Shown here in pieces: positions 2,838 through 46,922 of a stretch of 47,075 bases of DNA (positions within the stretch are counted from its first letter, which is position 1; each line of letters starts with the position of its first letter). Under the pieces are notes generated by a model, which was given only the letters and a program-made list of their open reading frames with translations, ran no database searches and was not told where the DNA came from. Made by a program: the position numbers and the translations under genes. The stretch comes from Clostridia bacterium 41_269 (lineage in GTDB: Bacteria > Bacillota > DTU086): NCBI GenBank assembly GCA_001508005.1, contig LGEZ01000017.1, forward strand, positions 1-47,075, written 5' to 3'.

Positions 2838-3092
2838 TAATGAAAAAGGCTGTGAACGGGAAAAGTAGGTGGGCATACCCTTTTAAAGAGAGCTGCTGGG
2901 GGTGGAAATGCAGCAAAGGGTTCCCTCCGAACTCGCCCGGGAGCGGTGGGGGTGAAATTGGAAATTGTATGAGTAGCTCCCAACGGCTGCCTTCCGTTAA
3001 AAGGCTTTGAGTGGGCATGGGGAATCCCATGTCAAAAAGGGTGGTACCGCGGAACTTAAACCTTCCGTCCCTGGGGATGGGAGGTTTTTTTA
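2838..3092 (+). promoter_or_regulatory. Leucine-specific T-box leader of leuS
   Basis: The T-box sequence AGGGTGGTACCGCGG lies at 3038-3052 and is followed by a terminator. In Stem I the 5' side has GAACGGGAAAAGTAGG (from about 2854), and GGGC at 2871-2874 pairs with GCCC at 2935-2938. This frames an internal loop whose 3' side reads GAA-CTC, so the specifier is most likely CTC (2932-2934), a leucine codon matching the downstream gene. Uncharged tRNA-Leu with a GAG anticodon would stabilise the antiterminator and switch leuS on. Element identity is certain; the exact specifier register is inferred from pairing. Confidence 0.93.
3061..3092 (+). terminator. T-box regulated terminator
   Basis: The arms CCTTCCGTCC and GGATGGGAGG pair around a short loop (two G-T pairs) and are followed by a run of seven T residues. 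The 5' arm follows the T-box bulge sequence that would form the competing antiterminator. Confidence 0.85.
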
Positions 3093-40932: not shown

Positions 40933-40984
40933 TCCCAGGGGCTGTCCTATAGGTTGAGATGCTCCTGGGGAAGGGAGTGTCTCA
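40933..40984 (+). promoter_or_regulatory. Switch-like leader structure of mgtE
   Basis: Helix A: CCCAGGGGC (40934-40942) pairs with GCTCCTGGG (40961-40969). Helix B: TGAGATGCTCC (40955-40965) pairs over 11 positions, two of them G-T, with GGAGTGTCTCA (40974-40984). They share 40961-40965 and cannot coexist. Helix B covers the AAGGGAG binding site of mgtE, so it is the off state by inference. I do not see the conserved core of the ykoK/M-box magnesium riboswitch. Confidence 0.55.
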
Positions 40985-40989
40985 AAAGG

Positions 40990-42348
40990 ATGATCCAGAA
41001 CAAGCAGGAAATAATTCAGCTGCTTCTAAAGTACTTGGAGGAACAAAACCACGATAAAATACAAGAGTTTTTGGAAAAATATCAGCCGGCAGATATAGCA
41101 GAGATATTAAAGGATATGGATGCTGCTGAACGGGGGAAGATATTTAAGCTGCTGGATAAAGGGGCTGCGGCACTGGTTTTGGATATGCTGGATATAGGAA
41201 CCATTACCTCCCTTTTGGAAACATTGGGTCCCCAATACATTGCTGAAATTTTAAATGAAATGTCTTCCGATGATGCAGCGGATCTTTTAGGGCATTTCCC
41301 TGAGGAGCTTAGGAATACACTGCTGGGCCTTATGCAGGCAGAAGATGCCGGTGAGGTTCAGGGGCTTTTAGAGTATGATATTGAAAGCGCCGGCGGTATA
41401 ATGACAACGGAATATGTAGCCATTCCCAAGGATATTACAGCCGGCAAAGCCATTGAAATTTTGCGAAAAACTGCTCCCGATGCTGAGACCATTTATTATG
41501 TTTACGTTGTTGATTCCCAAAATAGACTTGTGGGAGTAATTTCCCTTAGGGAGCTTATAGTTGCTGACCCTGATACACTGATAGAAGATATAATGCATAA
41601 AAAGGTGATCAGCGTTTCTGTTGATATGGATCAGGAAGAAGTGGCAGAAGTGGTTTCAAAATATGACTTTTTAGCTGTACCCGTTGTGGATCATGATAAC
41701 AGGCTAGTGGGAATTATTACAGTTGACGATGTTATTGATGTTATTTATGATGAAGCATCAGAGGATATTTTTCGCTTAGGTGGAAGCACTGAACTTGTTG
41801 ATGATTATGTTGGAACAAGAATCAGCCGAGCGCTTAAATCAAGGCTGCCGTGGCTTTCTGTGACCATGCTGGAAGGAATAATAGCTGGACAGGTGTTGCG
41901 GGGACTCGAAAACGAACTGAGGGCTGTTGTGGCATTGGCTTTTTTTATACCTCTCCTAACAGGTATGGGTGGTAATGTAGGTACCCAATCTGCAACTGTT
42001 ACCGTTCGAGGACTTGCTACAGGAGATATTGACGAAAATAATGTGCTTTCAGTGATTTTTAGGGAACTTTTAACAGGAGTTCTCCTGGGGATAATAAACG
42101 GCATTCTTGTGGGCAGCATTGCATGGGTGTGGCAGAAAAATGCAGTGTTGGGCTTCATTGTGGGACTGGCAATGGTTGGAAATATGACCATCGCTGCTCT
42201 GATGGGCGCCCTTGTTCCCCTTACTTTTAAGAAAGTTGGAATTGATCCCGCAGTTGCTTCTGCTCCCTTTATAACAGCTTCCATAGACATCACCGGCCTG
42301 CTGATATATTCCACCCTGGCAAGATTATTTATTGGTTTTCTGCTCTAA
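40990..42348 (+). CDS. mgtE: Magnesium transporter MgtE
   Basis: A 452-residue magnesium channel. The N-terminal superhelical MgtE_N domain (about 10-125; LSSDDAADLLGHFPEEL-type EMSSDDAADLL) is followed by two CBS domains (about 130-260; YVYVVDSQNRLVGVISLREL, FLAVPVVDHDNRLVGIITVDDVIDV), a plug helix, and five membrane helices (about 285-452; MGGNVGTQSATVTVRGLA). ATG 40990 is chosen over a non-ATG start at 40954 that lies inside the leader hairpins. It is not part of the Bacillus order between era and recO. Confidence 0.95.
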   Translation: MIQNKQEIIQLLLKYLEEQNHDKIQEFLEKYQPADIAEILKDMDAAERGKIFKLLDKGAAALVLDMLDIGTITSLLETLGPQYIAEILNEMSSDDAADLLGHFPEELRNTLLGLMQAEDAGEVQGLLEYDIESAGGIMTTEYVAIPKDITAGKAIEILRKTAPDAETIYYVYVVDSQNRLVGVISLRELIVADPDTLIEDIMHKKVISVSVDMDQEEVAEVVSKYDFLAVPVVDHDNRLVGIITVDDVIDVIYDEASEDIFRLGGSTELVDDYVGTRISRALKSRLPWLSVTMLEGIIAGQVLRGLENELRAVVALAFFIPLLTGMGGNVGTQSATVTVRGLATGDIDENNVLSVIFRELLTGVLLGIINGILVGSIAWVWQKNAVLGFIVGLAMVGNMTIAALMGALVPLTFKKVGIDPAVASAPFITASIDITGLLIYSTLARLFIGFLL

Positions 42349-43428: not shown

Positions 43429-43848
43429 ATGACAGAAGAATACCTGCAGAAAATAGAGGTAATTAGGGAAAGGTTGGGAGTTTCTTATAAAGAGGCAAAG
43501 GAAGCGTTGGATCAGGCAGGGGGAGATGTGGTACAGGCCATAGTCAATCTAGAAGAAAAGGGAAAAGAAGCTTTGGAAAAAAATGAACTGGGTAAAAAGC
43601 TTTTTGCCCGAATAAAGTCCATAATTCAAAAGGGAAATGCGACCAAAATAAAAGTCAAAAAGGACGATAATGTGGTTTTGGAGATTCCTGCCACGTTGGG
43701 AGCTCTGGGCGTTCTGGGAATGCTTATGAGTGCAGAATTTGCTATTATTGCAGGGCTTGGATCCGTTGCTGCCATGCTCAATGAATATACCTTGGAAATC
43801 GAGAAGAAAGATGGGACCATTGAAGAGGCAAAGATAGATGATGCATGA
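43429..43848 (+). CDS. UBA/TS-N plus DUF4342 domain protein
   Basis: A 139-residue protein. Residues 1-45 form a UBA-like TS-N helix bundle (IEVIRERLGVSYKEAKEALDQAGGDVVQAIVNLE). Residues 55-135 match DUF4342 (LFARIKSIIQKGNATKIKVKKDDNVVLEIPATLGALGVLGML... LEIEKKDGTIEEA), with a hydrophobic hairpin. The combination is widespread in Clostridia; the biochemical role is unknown. ATG 43429 follows AAAGGAGTGA, and a terminator follows the gene. Confidence 0.85.
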   Translation: MTEEYLQKIEVIRERLGVSYKEAKEALDQAGGDVVQAIVNLEEKGKEALEKNELGKKLFARIKSIIQKGNATKIKVKKDDNVVLEIPATLGALGVLGMLMSAEFAIIAGLGSVAAMLNEYTLEIEKKDGTIEEAKIDDA

Positions 43849-43995: not shown

Positions 43996-44510
43996 TTGAA
44001 AAGAATTGAGGCAGAAGAATTGAGGCCCGGTATGAAGCTGGCTCTTCCCATTAGATGCCCCATGTCTTATAAAATCCTGTTAAATGCTGGAACAGTACTT
44101 ACTGCTGGTCAAATTGAGAGGATTAAAAATCTCAGCCCAAAAGAAATTTTCATCAGTACTTCAAAGTATTCCTATCACCCGGCTAAAATGCTGTTTTTTG
44201 AGGCAGTGGAGGCGCTGGATAAAGTTTATTCTGATTTTTTTGGATAAGAGGCATGCCCAATTAAAACCCCTTAAGAACACAGCATAAAATAAAATTTAGA
44301 AAAAGATGCTCAGATTCTTTTAAATCTTGCTTTATTGAACAACGCTGATAGTTATTCCTTAAGCCACTGCGTCAATGTATGTGTTTATTCTCTTTTCATT
44401 GGGCAGAAAATGAATTTAAGCAAAACGAAATTAATAGAATTGGGGTTAGGGGTACTGCTTCATGATGATATAGGAAAGGCTTTGGTGCCTATAGAATTTA
44501 TTTATCTGAA
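43996..44510 (+). pseudogene. Broken HD-GYP domain protein
   Basis: Frame 43996-44247 (TTG start, GGAGG upstream) encodes the N-terminal domain typical of HD-GYP proteins (RIEAEELRPGMKLALPI... NAGTVLTAGQIERIKNLSPKEIFI). After in-frame stops from 44245, the same frame resumes from about 44305 with DAQILLNLALLNNADSYSLSH, CVNVCVYSLFIGQKM and GVLLHDDIGKALVP. The active-site motif reads HDDIGK instead of HDIGK, an in-frame insertion of one GAT. The gene is cut off soon after, before the GYP part, and joined to unrelated sequence near 44500. Confidence 0.82.
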
Positions 44511-44762
44511 ACTCAGGATTACCGATTGCTTATTCCTGCAAGAAATTATTACAGGAATATTTTTTTACGCAGTGTTTTGAAGTCAGCGGCTTTCTTAAAT
44601 TACCAGAAAAAATATAATGAAGCTGAATTATTATACGAGAATGCTTTAAAATTTGATCCCTTTGATGAAGATTTAAATTATATGTATATCAATATTTTGG
44701 CAAAGCAGAAAAAGCAAAGCCAGTCCATAAAACATATCATGGAGAACATTGGATTTATCTAA
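44500..44762 (+). pseudogene. C-terminal fragment of a SARP/BTAD-type regulator
   Basis: In a different frame from the HD-GYP remnant, this stretch encodes LSETQDYRLLIPARNYYRN, IFLRSVLKSAAFLNYQKKYNEA and ALKFDPFDEDLNYMYINILA. That is a tetratricopeptide-like pattern matching the end of bacterial transcriptional activation (BTAD) domains. There is no DNA-binding domain and no convincing start; the only start codon in frame is TTG 44526. It is best read as the surviving 3' end of a regulator fused by deletion to the preceding pseudogene. Confidence 0.65.
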
Positions 44763-44786
44763 AACATAATTTTTAAGGAGGAGAGA

Positions 44787-45476
44787 ATGAAAAATATTAA
44801 AAGTACTGTAGTGGAAGTACTCCTGGCTGTCCTACCTGTAACTGTTATTGTAATTATCCTTCAGATTTTACTGCATTTACCCTTAGAGCTTATGATTCAA
44901 TTTTTAATTGGAGCAGCAATGATTTCCGTTGGTCTCATTCTTTTTTTATTGGGTGTGCGTATTGGACTGTTGGAAATAGGTGAAGCCATTGGTGCTGCCC
45001 TTCCTCAGACGGGTAAAGTATGGATTCTGGTTCTTTTTGGTTTTCTCTTGGGTACAGTTGTTACTGTTGCAGAGCCTGACGTAAGGGTGCTGGCTACTCA
45101 AGTAGATGCTGTATCAGGAGGAGCTATACCCAAAAACCTTTTAATAATAACAGTGGGGCTGGGTGTGGGAATTTTTGTTGCTCTTGCCATATTTCGAGTT
45201 ATCCTTAATATTCCCCTTAAATACATTCTATTGGTAAGCTACACCCTTGTTCTTATACTTGCTGCCCTAGCACCTGCTGAATTTGCAGCAGTATCCTTGG
45301 ATGCTGGGGGTGTGACCACTGGTCCCCTTACAGTACCCTTTATTATTTCCCTGGGGATTGGGGTTGCTTCGGTTATGGGTGGAAGAAGTGCATCGGCTGA
45401 TGGTTTTGGATATGTTGCTCTGGGCTCCATAGGTCCGATTTTGGCTGTACTGCTGTTGGGGGTGATTTATGGTTGA
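44787..45476 (+). CDS. DUF1538 membrane protein, first of a pair
   Basis: A 229-residue integral membrane protein with about seven helices. Motifs shared with its neighbour: AEPDVRVLA (about 93-101), SGGAIPKNLL, LDAGGVTTGPLTVPF (about 170-184) and the C-terminal GSIGPILAVLLLGVIYG. These define DUF1538, whose members are thought to be transporters or channels of unknown substrate. ATG 44787 follows AAGGAGGAG. It overlaps the next gene by four bases, and a double P-II protein follows, so the three genes look like one transport-and-sensor unit. Confidence 0.9.
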   Translation: MKNIKSTVVEVLLAVLPVTVIVIILQILLHLPLELMIQFLIGAAMISVGLILFLLGVRIGLLEIGEAIGAALPQTGKVWILVLFGFLLGTVVTVAEPDVRVLATQVDAVSGGAIPKNLLIITVGLGVGIFVALAIFRVILNIPLKYILLVSYTLVLILAALAPAEFAAVSLDAGGVTTGPLTVPFIISLGIGVASVMGGRSASADGFGYVALGSIGPILAVLLLGVIYG

Positions 45477-46222
45477 AGGTAATTAATTTTTTTGCAGGTT
45501 TTGACCATGTGCTGCTGGAAGTTGCCCTTGCTTTGCTGCCTTTAACTCTTTTATTTATCATTTTGCAGGTTTGGCTGCTTAAATTCCCGAAGGAAAAAGT
45601 TTATGTCATTATTAAAGGTTTATTTCTAACCCTTATAGGTACATCTTTATTCTTACAGGGCGTATATATGGGATTTCTGCCTGTGGGAGAAGTTATGAGG
45701 AAAACTTTAGGAACACTAAAGTATAAATGGCTTATTATTCCCTTAGGTTTTGTTCTGGGATTTGTGGCAGTTTTTGCAGAGCCGGCAGTACGGGTACTTA
45801 ATTATGAAGTGGAAAAGGCATCAGGAGGATATATACCGCAGCAGCTGATGCTGTATACGCTCTCTTTGGGAGTTGCTTTTTCTGTGGCACTGGCCATGGT
45901 GAGAATTCTTTACGGCGTTCCCCTTTTGTATTTCATAATCCCGGGATATGGGCTGGCTTTTATAATGGCTCATTATTCCACTCCAACCTTTGTGGCCATT
46001 GCTTTTGATTCAGGCGGCGTTGCTGCTGGTCCCATGACCGTAACTTTTTTTCTTGCCATGGCTTTGGGGATTGCTGCAGCTATAGAAGGGCGCAATCCCT
46101 TGATTGAAGGTTTTGGAATGATAGCCCTTGTTGCCCTATCTCCCATTTTAGCAGTTTTATTATTAGGACTCCTTTATAGAAGAAAGGAGAAGCAGATTGA
46201 ACGTGAAATTACAGAGATGTAA
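45473..46222 (+). CDS. DUF1538 membrane protein, second of a pair
   Basis: 249 residues, about seven helices, clearly homologous to the preceding protein: AEPAVRVLNYEV, SGGYIPQQLM, FDSGGVAAGPMTVTF, and SPILAVLLLGLLYRRKEKQ. The Glu/Pro and Asp-x-Gly-Gly-Val motifs sit in equivalent positions, as expected for two halves of a pseudosymmetric transporter; in many genomes they are fused. TTG 45473 overlaps the first gene's stop (TTGA) after GGGGGTGA. The end overlaps the P-II gene by 26 bases. Confidence 0.9.
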   Translation: MKVINFFAGFDHVLLEVALALLPLTLLFIILQVWLLKFPKEKVYVIIKGLFLTLIGTSLFLQGVYMGFLPVGEVMRKTLGTLKYKWLIIPLGFVLGFVAVFAEPAVRVLNYEVEKASGGYIPQQLMLYTLSLGVAFSVALAMVRILYGVPLLYFIIPGYGLAFIMAHYSTPTFVAIAFDSGGVAAGPMTVTFFLAMALGIAAAIEGRNPLIEGFGMIALVALSPILAVLLLGLLYRRKEKQIEREITEM

Positions 46223-46922
46223 ACTGCTGGTTACCATTGTTAACCATGGGATGGCAAGAAAGATTGTTGGAGCTTCAAAGAAGGCCGGGGCTGAAGGAGG
46301 AACCACTATTCTTGGTAAGGGAACGGGAAGTCATGAGATAGCAGAAATTTTCGGTATACCCTTTGAACCGGAAAAGGAAATAGTTCTCACTCTAATCTCA
46401 GAAGATAAGTTGGAGGATGTGTTAAATGCTGTGGTATCCACAGGAAAGCTTTATAAAGCCGGTCATGGAATTGCTTTTGTAGTGAATGTAAAGAAAGTTG
46501 CGGGTATATGTCATCCATGTGCGTTAAAAGAAGCAAGCGGTGAGTTCTTGGGAGGGACAGAAATGGAAGATGGCTGTGAGACTGTATATGACTTGATTGT
46601 AACTATAGTTAATAAGGGGGATTCTGAAAGAGTTATTAGCTGTACAAGGAAATTGGGTGCCACAGGAGGAACAATAATGTTTGGTCGAGGAACGGGAGTC
46701 CATGAGCAGACCAAATTATTTGGTATTACTATTGAACCGGAAAAGGAAATAGTTCTTACTCTCGTTGAACGTGGACTTACAAAAAAGGTTTTGGAAGCTA
46801 TTGAAAAAGAAATTGAACTGAAGAAACCTGGAAAGGGAATAGCCTTTGTTCTTGAAGTTGATAGGGTTGCTGGTATAAATCATGATATTAACAATATAGT
46901 AAAAAATGATAAAAATAAATAA
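46197..46922 (+). CDS. Tandem P-II-like protein (two GlnB-type domains)
   Basis: A 241-residue protein made of two P-II-like domains, about 8-105 and 130-232. Each shows the pattern LLVTIVNHG / LIVTIVNKG, GAEGGTTILGKGTG / GATGGTIMFGRGTG, FEPEKEIVLTL / IEPEKEIVLTL and GHGIAFVVNV / GKGIAFVLEV. P-II proteins sense nucleotides and metabolites and bind partner transporters. The Tyr of classical GlnB T-loops is not evident. The linker carries CHPC and a further Cys. TTG 46197 follows AAAGGAGAAG and lies within the second DUF1538 gene, so the three are translationally coupled. Confidence 0.88.
   Translation: MNVKLQRCKLLVTIVNHGMARKIVGASKKAGAEGGTTILGKGTGSHEIAEIFGIPFEPEKEIVLTLISEDKLEDVLNAVVSTGKLYKAGHGIAFVVNVKKVAGICHPCALKEASGEFLGGTEMEDGCETVYDLIVTIVNKGDSERVISCTRKLGATGGTIMFGRGTGVHEQTKLFGITIEPEKEIVLTLVERGLTKKVLEAIEKEIELKKPGKGIAFVLEVDRVAGINHDINNIVKNDKNK

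Follow-up and report, generated by a model that had tools for sequence, protein, structure and literature searches.

Few signal proteins known are as widespread as P-II proteins, and the transporter cargo documented for them comprises ammonium, nitrate, urea and bicarbonate; the P-II-controlled transporters listed in a 2023 review are AmtB, Amt1, NrtABCD, UrtABCDE and SbtA, all of which can be trimers (PMC10710835). Regarding DUF1538 membrane proteins, the only functionally tested members found in the literature are the UmpA/UmpB pair from Halomonas zhaodongensis, described in 2017. When co-expressed they rescue the E. coli strain KNabc on Na+ and Li+; they co-immunoprecipitate and are reported as a heterodimer, and in vesicles they exchange Na+, Li+ or K+ for H+, optimally at pH 9 and with K0.5 values of 0.26-0.46 mM (PMC5484666). 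The clone comprised ORF1-4 only, and UmpAB functioned in E. coli in the absence of its cognate P-II, so that P-II is not required for transport; P-II is not mentioned in that paper (PMC5484666). The corresponding NCBIfam equivalog models, NF041627 (UmpA) and NF041628 (UmpB), are annotated as Na,Li,K/H(+) antiporter subunits, and papers on cable bacteria already name UmpAB homologues as salt adaptations. No paper joining DUF1538 or UmpAB to P-II was found in a literature search whose coverage excluded subscription journals and preprints.

The locus analysed here lies in a window of 47,075 nucleotides, contig LGEZ01000017.1 of Clostridia bacterium 41_269. An earlier note, made from the sequence alone, had described it as a candidate undescribed transport system with its own sensor. 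For the carrier this does not hold, since DUF1538 pairs are UmpAB, an antiporter known since 2017 (PMC5484666); what appears to be new is the class of P-II partner and the P-II subclass.

The operon and its DUF1538 pair

DUF1538-A, DUF1538-B and the tandem P-II gene form a single overlapping operon (Table 1), with coordinates of the three forward-strand frames exactly as first noted. The start of DUF1538-B and the stop of DUF1538-A share 4 bases (TTGA), an overlap also present in 85 of the surveyed two-gene operons, and the P-II gene overlaps DUF1538-B, the product of which has a K/R-rich C-terminal tail, by 26 bases. The description of two adjacent homologous membrane proteins was borne out by 41.5% identity between A and B over 207 residues (E=1.8e-44), and the motifs AEPxVRVL, SGGxIP, DxGGVxxGPxTV and PILAVLLLG do stand at equivalent positions in both.

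Table 1. Features of the DUF1538/P-II operon, with positions in the window.
Feature	Position	Strand	Remarks
Ribosome-binding site GGAGGAG of DUF1538-A	44777-44783	+	3 bases 5' of ATG 44787, read from sequence
DUF1538-A, UmpA-like antiporter subunit, 229 aa	44787-45476	+	ATG; PF07556 E=2.1e-71
DUF1538-B, UmpB-like antiporter subunit, 249 aa	45473-46222	+	TTG; PF07556 E=2.4e-71
Ribosome-binding site AAAGGAG of P-II gene	46183-46189	+	within 3' end of DUF1538-B, read from sequence
Tandem P-II protein, UmpAB-linked subfamily, 241 aa	46197-46922	+	TTG; PF00543 E=2.8e-14, two stretches
N-terminal P-II domain, divergent copy, GKGTGSHE	46221-46505	+	PF00543 E=8.3e-7 (whole-genome search)
C-terminal P-II domain, conserved copy, GRGTGVHE / IEPEKE / KPGKGIAF	46593-46877	+	PF00543 E=5.5e-8 (whole-genome search)

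Both membrane proteins belong to PF07556 (DUF1538), each scoring 240 bits against a cut-off of 22.6, and the window holds them as two adjacent homologous genes, which together with fusions define a DUF1538 pair. The UmpA and UmpB models gave 111 and 104 bits for A and 114 and 108 bits for B (E 1e-30 to 1e-33), and neither protein reached the equivalog cut-offs of 490/500 bits; scores of 104-114 bits therefore mark a distant member, to which the substrate can be transferred only with caution. Common architecture and key residues place the pair within the UmpAB family, at a distance from its characterised members. It resembles UmpAB (PMC5484666) in consisting of two adjacent overlapping genes for homologous PF07556 membrane proteins with AEP and DxGGV motifs that would form a heteromer, and differs from it in being 20-25 residues shorter and in having GP after DxGGVxx, where ST is seen in the clade closest to the characterised pair.

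Across 305 DUF1538 domains, the most constant polar residues are the E of AEP (99%), the D of DxGG (~100%) and an arginine, R137/R144 (92%). The motif DxGGVxxGPxTV, as first formulated, holds family-wide in its D-x-GGV part only, ST taking the place of GP in the clade closest to the UmpAB of known function. The proposal of a heteromer is supported by the co-immunoprecipitation of UmpA with UmpB (PMC5484666). For the substrate, which had been left as an ion or small organic anion that could not be named, an organic anion found no support, and the substrate can provisionally be named, after NCBIfam, as Na,Li,K/H(+).

In the predicted structure of a fused DUF1538 family member (pLDDT 87.6), the AEP and DxGG motifs coincide with breaks in helices. 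Helices broken at conserved motifs suit an ion-binding carrier. Homology of the fold to solved transporters was rejected, the best Foldseek match (E=0.04, TM ~0.15) not being credible, and a DUF1538 sequence search against solved structures gave no match; because the model lacks a credible match among solved folds, a structure of the UmpAB/P-II complex would be new on both counts.

Several other features of the window were recorded. Just 5' of the operon, at 43996-44760, lies what appears to be a decayed HD-GYP-type gene, with a DUF3391-like start (43996-44247), a separate HD-domain-like frame containing LGLGVLLHDDIGKA, and after it a TPR-like stretch lacking a start. A small protein (43429-43848) joins a UBA-like N-terminus to DUF4342, an MgtE Mg2+ transporter with CBS domains (40954-42348) is encoded a few genes upstream of the operon, a T-box leader (139 bits) occupies positions 2843-3075, and the 3' end of the contig (47048-47075) is a run of CTT repeats, probably the point at which assembly stopped.

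Linkage of P-II genes to DUF1538 operons

The operon survey covered 80 named genomes, samples of Bacillota, of the Methanoculleus phylum and of the Pseudodesulfovibrio phylum, and plasmids, and comprised 158 DUF1538 operons, some from one species and 139 distinct by sequence. A P-II gene directly follows DUF1538 on the 3' side in 150/158 of them, with a median spacing that is an 11-base overlap of the longest frames. Among the eight operons without an adjacent P-II, four lie at a contig edge and four have none within reach; at one of the latter (L169) the P-II is found 2.7 kb downstream, behind an IS605 OrfB-type insertion. Truly P-II-less operons number 3/158 (two Sutcliffiella and one Metabacillus, all Bacillaceae), in genomes with canonical P-II only.

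Genome co-occurrence gave the same picture. Among 399 Bacillota genomes, DUF1538 was detected in 138 and the P-II subfamily, counted with the subfamily profile A7, in 138, with both in 136 (Fisher 1e-102, a descriptive value because the genomes are related), and the P-II subfamily and DUF1538 occur in 98 and 99 of 267 genera. The Bacillota exceptions are a contig that ends at the DUF1538 gene (G304), a weak DUF1538 only (G058), a truncated P-II relic only (G051) and an orphan P-II (G367). In the archaeal Methanoculleus phylum sample, DUF1538 above the cut-off and the P-II subfamily occur in the identical 31/31 genomes, and in the Pseudodesulfovibrio phylum sample the subfamily is present in 12/12 DUF1538 genomes. 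Queries of 72,556 plasmids with DUF1538 and with P-II found the identical nine records; the four inspected carry DUF1538, DUF1538 (or a fusion), then a 'P-II family nitrogen regulator', and Methylocystis and Chelativorans are the only Pseudomonadota among the matches. P-II is present in the clade nearest to the characterised UmpAB too (UmpA 355 bits, UmpB 316 bits), as well as at 17 further near-UmpAB loci, two of which were scored against UmpA/UmpB. The gene order is common to Bacillota, Desulfobacterota, methanogenic archaea, Balneolaceae and alphaproteobacterial plasmids, and no recurrent third gene family was found beside the operon in the surveyed neighbourhoods. The tie between P-II and the DUF1538 pair that the earlier note proposed is upheld by both survey and co-occurrence, which decisively contradict the possibility, raised there, that the two families share no conserved neighbourhood. 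Across the 139 distinct operons, mutual information between P-II and DUF1538 exceeds that of shuffled pairings, but the top columns resemble clade markers (Neff 75), so that the excess carries no information on contact.

Regarding domain architecture, two separate DUF1538 genes are followed by a one-domain P-II in 60 operons, by a two-domain chain, as in the window, in 34 and by two one-domain P-IIs in 14, and fusions of the two DUF1538 halves, which it had been suggested to look for, are followed by a two-domain chain in 30, by two one-domain P-IIs in six and by a three-domain chain in one; five operons have a single DUF1538 domain in view. The loci L191 (331-3594) and L192 (290-3549) encode 369-381-residue chains with three P-II domains beside a fused DUF1538 partner of 706-713 residues with extra inserts; the obvious reading of such a chain is a putative single-chain ring, and the occurrence of one, two or three P-II domains per chain fits a P-II ring. 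No fusion of DUF1538 to P-II in one chain was found among the surveyed operons.

The UmpAB-linked P-II subfamily

The third protein of the operon scores 53.7 bits against PF00543 (cut-off 25 bits) and does contain two P-II-like domains, as first described: its halves are 50.5% identical (E=3e-31), and an AlphaFold2 model built from 51 sequences (pLDDT 80.5) consists of two GlnK-fold domains, for which Foldseek against the PDB returned GlnK/GlnB chains with a probability of 1.00 and TM ~0.7 per domain. Neither the homology of the membrane pair nor the tandem P-II domains can be put down to chance. One PDB lead, 9p1x (a 105-aa P-II), was weak and set aside as merely another P-II. In two-domain chains the N-terminal domain is less conserved than the C-terminal domain, the latter matching the subfamily profile with E=4.9e-48 in the window.

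Column-wise comparison of the subfamily with ten canonical P-IIs revealed a T-loop region ~5 residues shorter and the loss of the residues that contact the ATP phosphates (K90 replaced by I, R101 by G, R103 variable), and the B-loop TGxxGDGK has become LxxPGxGIAF, with T83/G84 lost. K58 and the loop glycines are retained, and GRGTG-HE and EPEKE are novel conserved features. The canonical GlnB/GlnK ATP/2-oxoglutarate site was not recognised in these proteins, and because the phosphate-binding residues are lost, canonical ATP/2-oxoglutarate sensing appears unlikely; on these residues, ATP and 2-oxoglutarate bound in the canonical mode are probably not the ligand. As a guess, c-di-AMP or an adenine nucleotide carrying fewer phosphates may take their place. 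In the tree, UmpAB-linked P-IIs stand apart from the canonical GlnB/GlnK clade (support 1.0, stem ~2.0 substitutions per site), that clade comprising all 10 canonical sequences plus two single P-IIs, probably weak ones (25-27 bits) away from DUF1538. A role as nitrogen regulator was considered and rejected, given that the canonical site is lost and that no P-II other than the DUF1538-linked protein was found in Enterococcus lactis. A further divergent P-II of the window's genome (G000:C28:36035-36310) scores 31.7 bits and misses the UmpAB-linked profile at E 1e-10.

Compared with GlnK-AmtB, the operon likewise has a P-II gene of GlnK fold adjoining that of a membrane partner, but the partner belongs to an antiporter family rather than to Amt, and the P-II differs in its shorter T-loop, the loss of K90/R101/R103 and its separate clade. 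SbtB-SbtA also combines a non-canonical P-II-like protein with a Na+-coupled carrier; the carrier, however, is a different one, the SbtB R-loop (CGPxGC) and RxxR are absent from the conserved columns of UmpAB-linked P-IIs, and a profile search found SbtB chains only at chance level (E=0.78-0.86). PII-NG genes are linked to metal efflux pumps, and the signal of PstA is linked to K+ homeostasis in Bacillota. PII-NG, the label given to Geobacter GSU2134 (PMC7726332), is likened here by description: it is a P-II relative in a metal-stress setting, with a different class of partner. PstA, a c-di-AMP-binding PII-like protein (PMC4316997), shares the P-II-like fold, but its Pfam family does not match the window P-II, for which PF00543 is the sole Pfam family up to E=0.1.

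At many loci with UmpAB-type operons in one order (that of G768) of Desulfobacterota, the P-II is followed by a 131-167-aa CBS-domain protein (L253:3412-3804, L254-L261 and L264), possibly a second nucleotide sensor.

A proposed gating subunit and alternative readings

The reading that we regard as moderately probable is that A and B together form a heteromeric Na+(Li+,K+)/H+ antiporter of the UmpAB type, and that the third gene supplies a dedicated cytoplasmic P-II subunit that senses a ligand and gates the carrier. P-II would assemble into a trimer-like ring of three domains, supplied by one-, two- or three-domain chains, and dock on the cytoplasmic face of UmpAB. There it would hold the carrier closed or open it in response to a small bound ligand reporting ionic, pH or energy state, on the model of GlnK for AmtB and SbtB for SbtA. 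The contact of P-II with UmpAB, the gating, the stoichiometry of the ring and the class of ligand are what we infer. Counting against gating by P-II are the activity of the Halomonas pair in E. coli with no P-II alongside, the three Bacillaceae that keep DUF1538 without an UmpAB-linked P-II, and the report of UmpAB as a heterodimer, the P-II targets so far being trimers (PMC5484666, PMC10710835).

The pairing points to a further role of P-II switches in the control of salt and pH balance. Control of a Na+(K+)/H+ antiporter, if true, would add ion and pH balance to the roles of P-II beyond nitrogen and carbon, in a pairing that spans about one third of the sampled Bacillota genomes as well as methanogens and sulfate reducers; the little-studied DUF1538 family would gain a regulator, and many annotations as 'P-II family nitrogen regulator' would be explained, for proteins that are probably unrelated to nitrogen.

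Regarding the wider genomic context, CPA-type Na+/H+ exchangers (PF00999) lie near 7/80 loci from several lineages, with ~0.57 expected from 2.1 genes per 3.1-Mb genome in 18 genomes, a non-random set (Poisson ~2e-6 by our own arithmetic), and NhaB flanks the UmpAB operons at L252 and L253. Among orphan members of the P-II subfamily, one immediately follows NhaB in a genome without a DUF1538 match (L220), another immediately follows a CitMHS_2 permease (L269), and others precede a CitMHS/MamN-like permease (L205) or CNNM and CorA (L270); P-II therefore tracks ion carriers even where the carrier has been swapped. In Desulfobacterota, further orphans of the subfamily (L218:3492-4313, L219:3504-4347 and L216:3995-4813) immediately precede a ~158-aa membrane protein that has no Pfam match, possibly a second P-II/membrane pair. 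A broader reading, to which we give an even chance, is that a separate class of P-II uses a remodelled ligand site to gate ion carriers in general. Most of these would be monovalent-cation/proton antiporters from families unrelated to one another, UmpAB foremost, and also NhaB and CitMHS-type permeases.

With bit scores far below the cut-offs and GP in place of ST in the central motif, the substrate could differ from that of UmpAB. The real substrate of the window's clade would then be something other than Na+ or K+ against H+, the KNabc screen would have picked up a side activity, and P-II would gate a carrier of another ion or metabolite. That there is a single functional paper to be found, and that some orphan P-IIs adjoin CNNM/CorA or CitMHS-type proteins, would agree with this, but antiport of Na+, Li+ and K+ was measured in vesicles with sub-mM K0.5 (PMC5484666), Na+/H+ exchangers are enriched among the neighbours and NhaB adjoins an orphan P-II, so we consider such a substrate unlikely. 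Quite unlikely, in our view, is that P-II is no ligand-responsive switch but a structural part that the antiporter always needs, as a cap or for assembly. UmpAB alone gives antiport in E. coli (PMC5484666), DUF1538 is retained without P-II in three lineages, and the GRGTG and EPEKE loop residues are highly conserved, as expected for a binding site. In favour of a structural role are the near-invariant linkage with overlapping genes, the lost nucleotide-phosphate residues and the chains of one, two or three domains.

Signalling might also run in reverse, the active transporter sequestering P-II and free P-II acting on other targets, for which GlnK sequestration by AmtB is a precedent (PMC10710835). 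A second conserved partner was, however, not seen in the neighbourhoods, and near-confinement of the subfamily to DUF1538 genomes suits a dedicated partner more than a hub, which makes this scheme very improbable. Passive co-inheritance of neighbouring genes can occur within a clade, but hitchhiking in an operon with no functional link is already contradicted by the survey, through the same order in all the lineages and plasmids named above, the splits and fusions of both partners and their reciprocal absence, and its probability is close to negligible. A UmpAB-type antiporter gated by its own P-II is the reading that we prefer.

A Na+ or c-di-AMP riboswitch, sought as a clue to the substrate, gave no Rfam hit in the window or in 37 loci. 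The Rfam hits in this set were T-box, BsrF, M-box (beside mgtE), tRNA and one fluoride riboswitch, none of them at the operon. At locus L063, the DUF1538 pair has an M-box riboswitch and mgtE on its downstream side.
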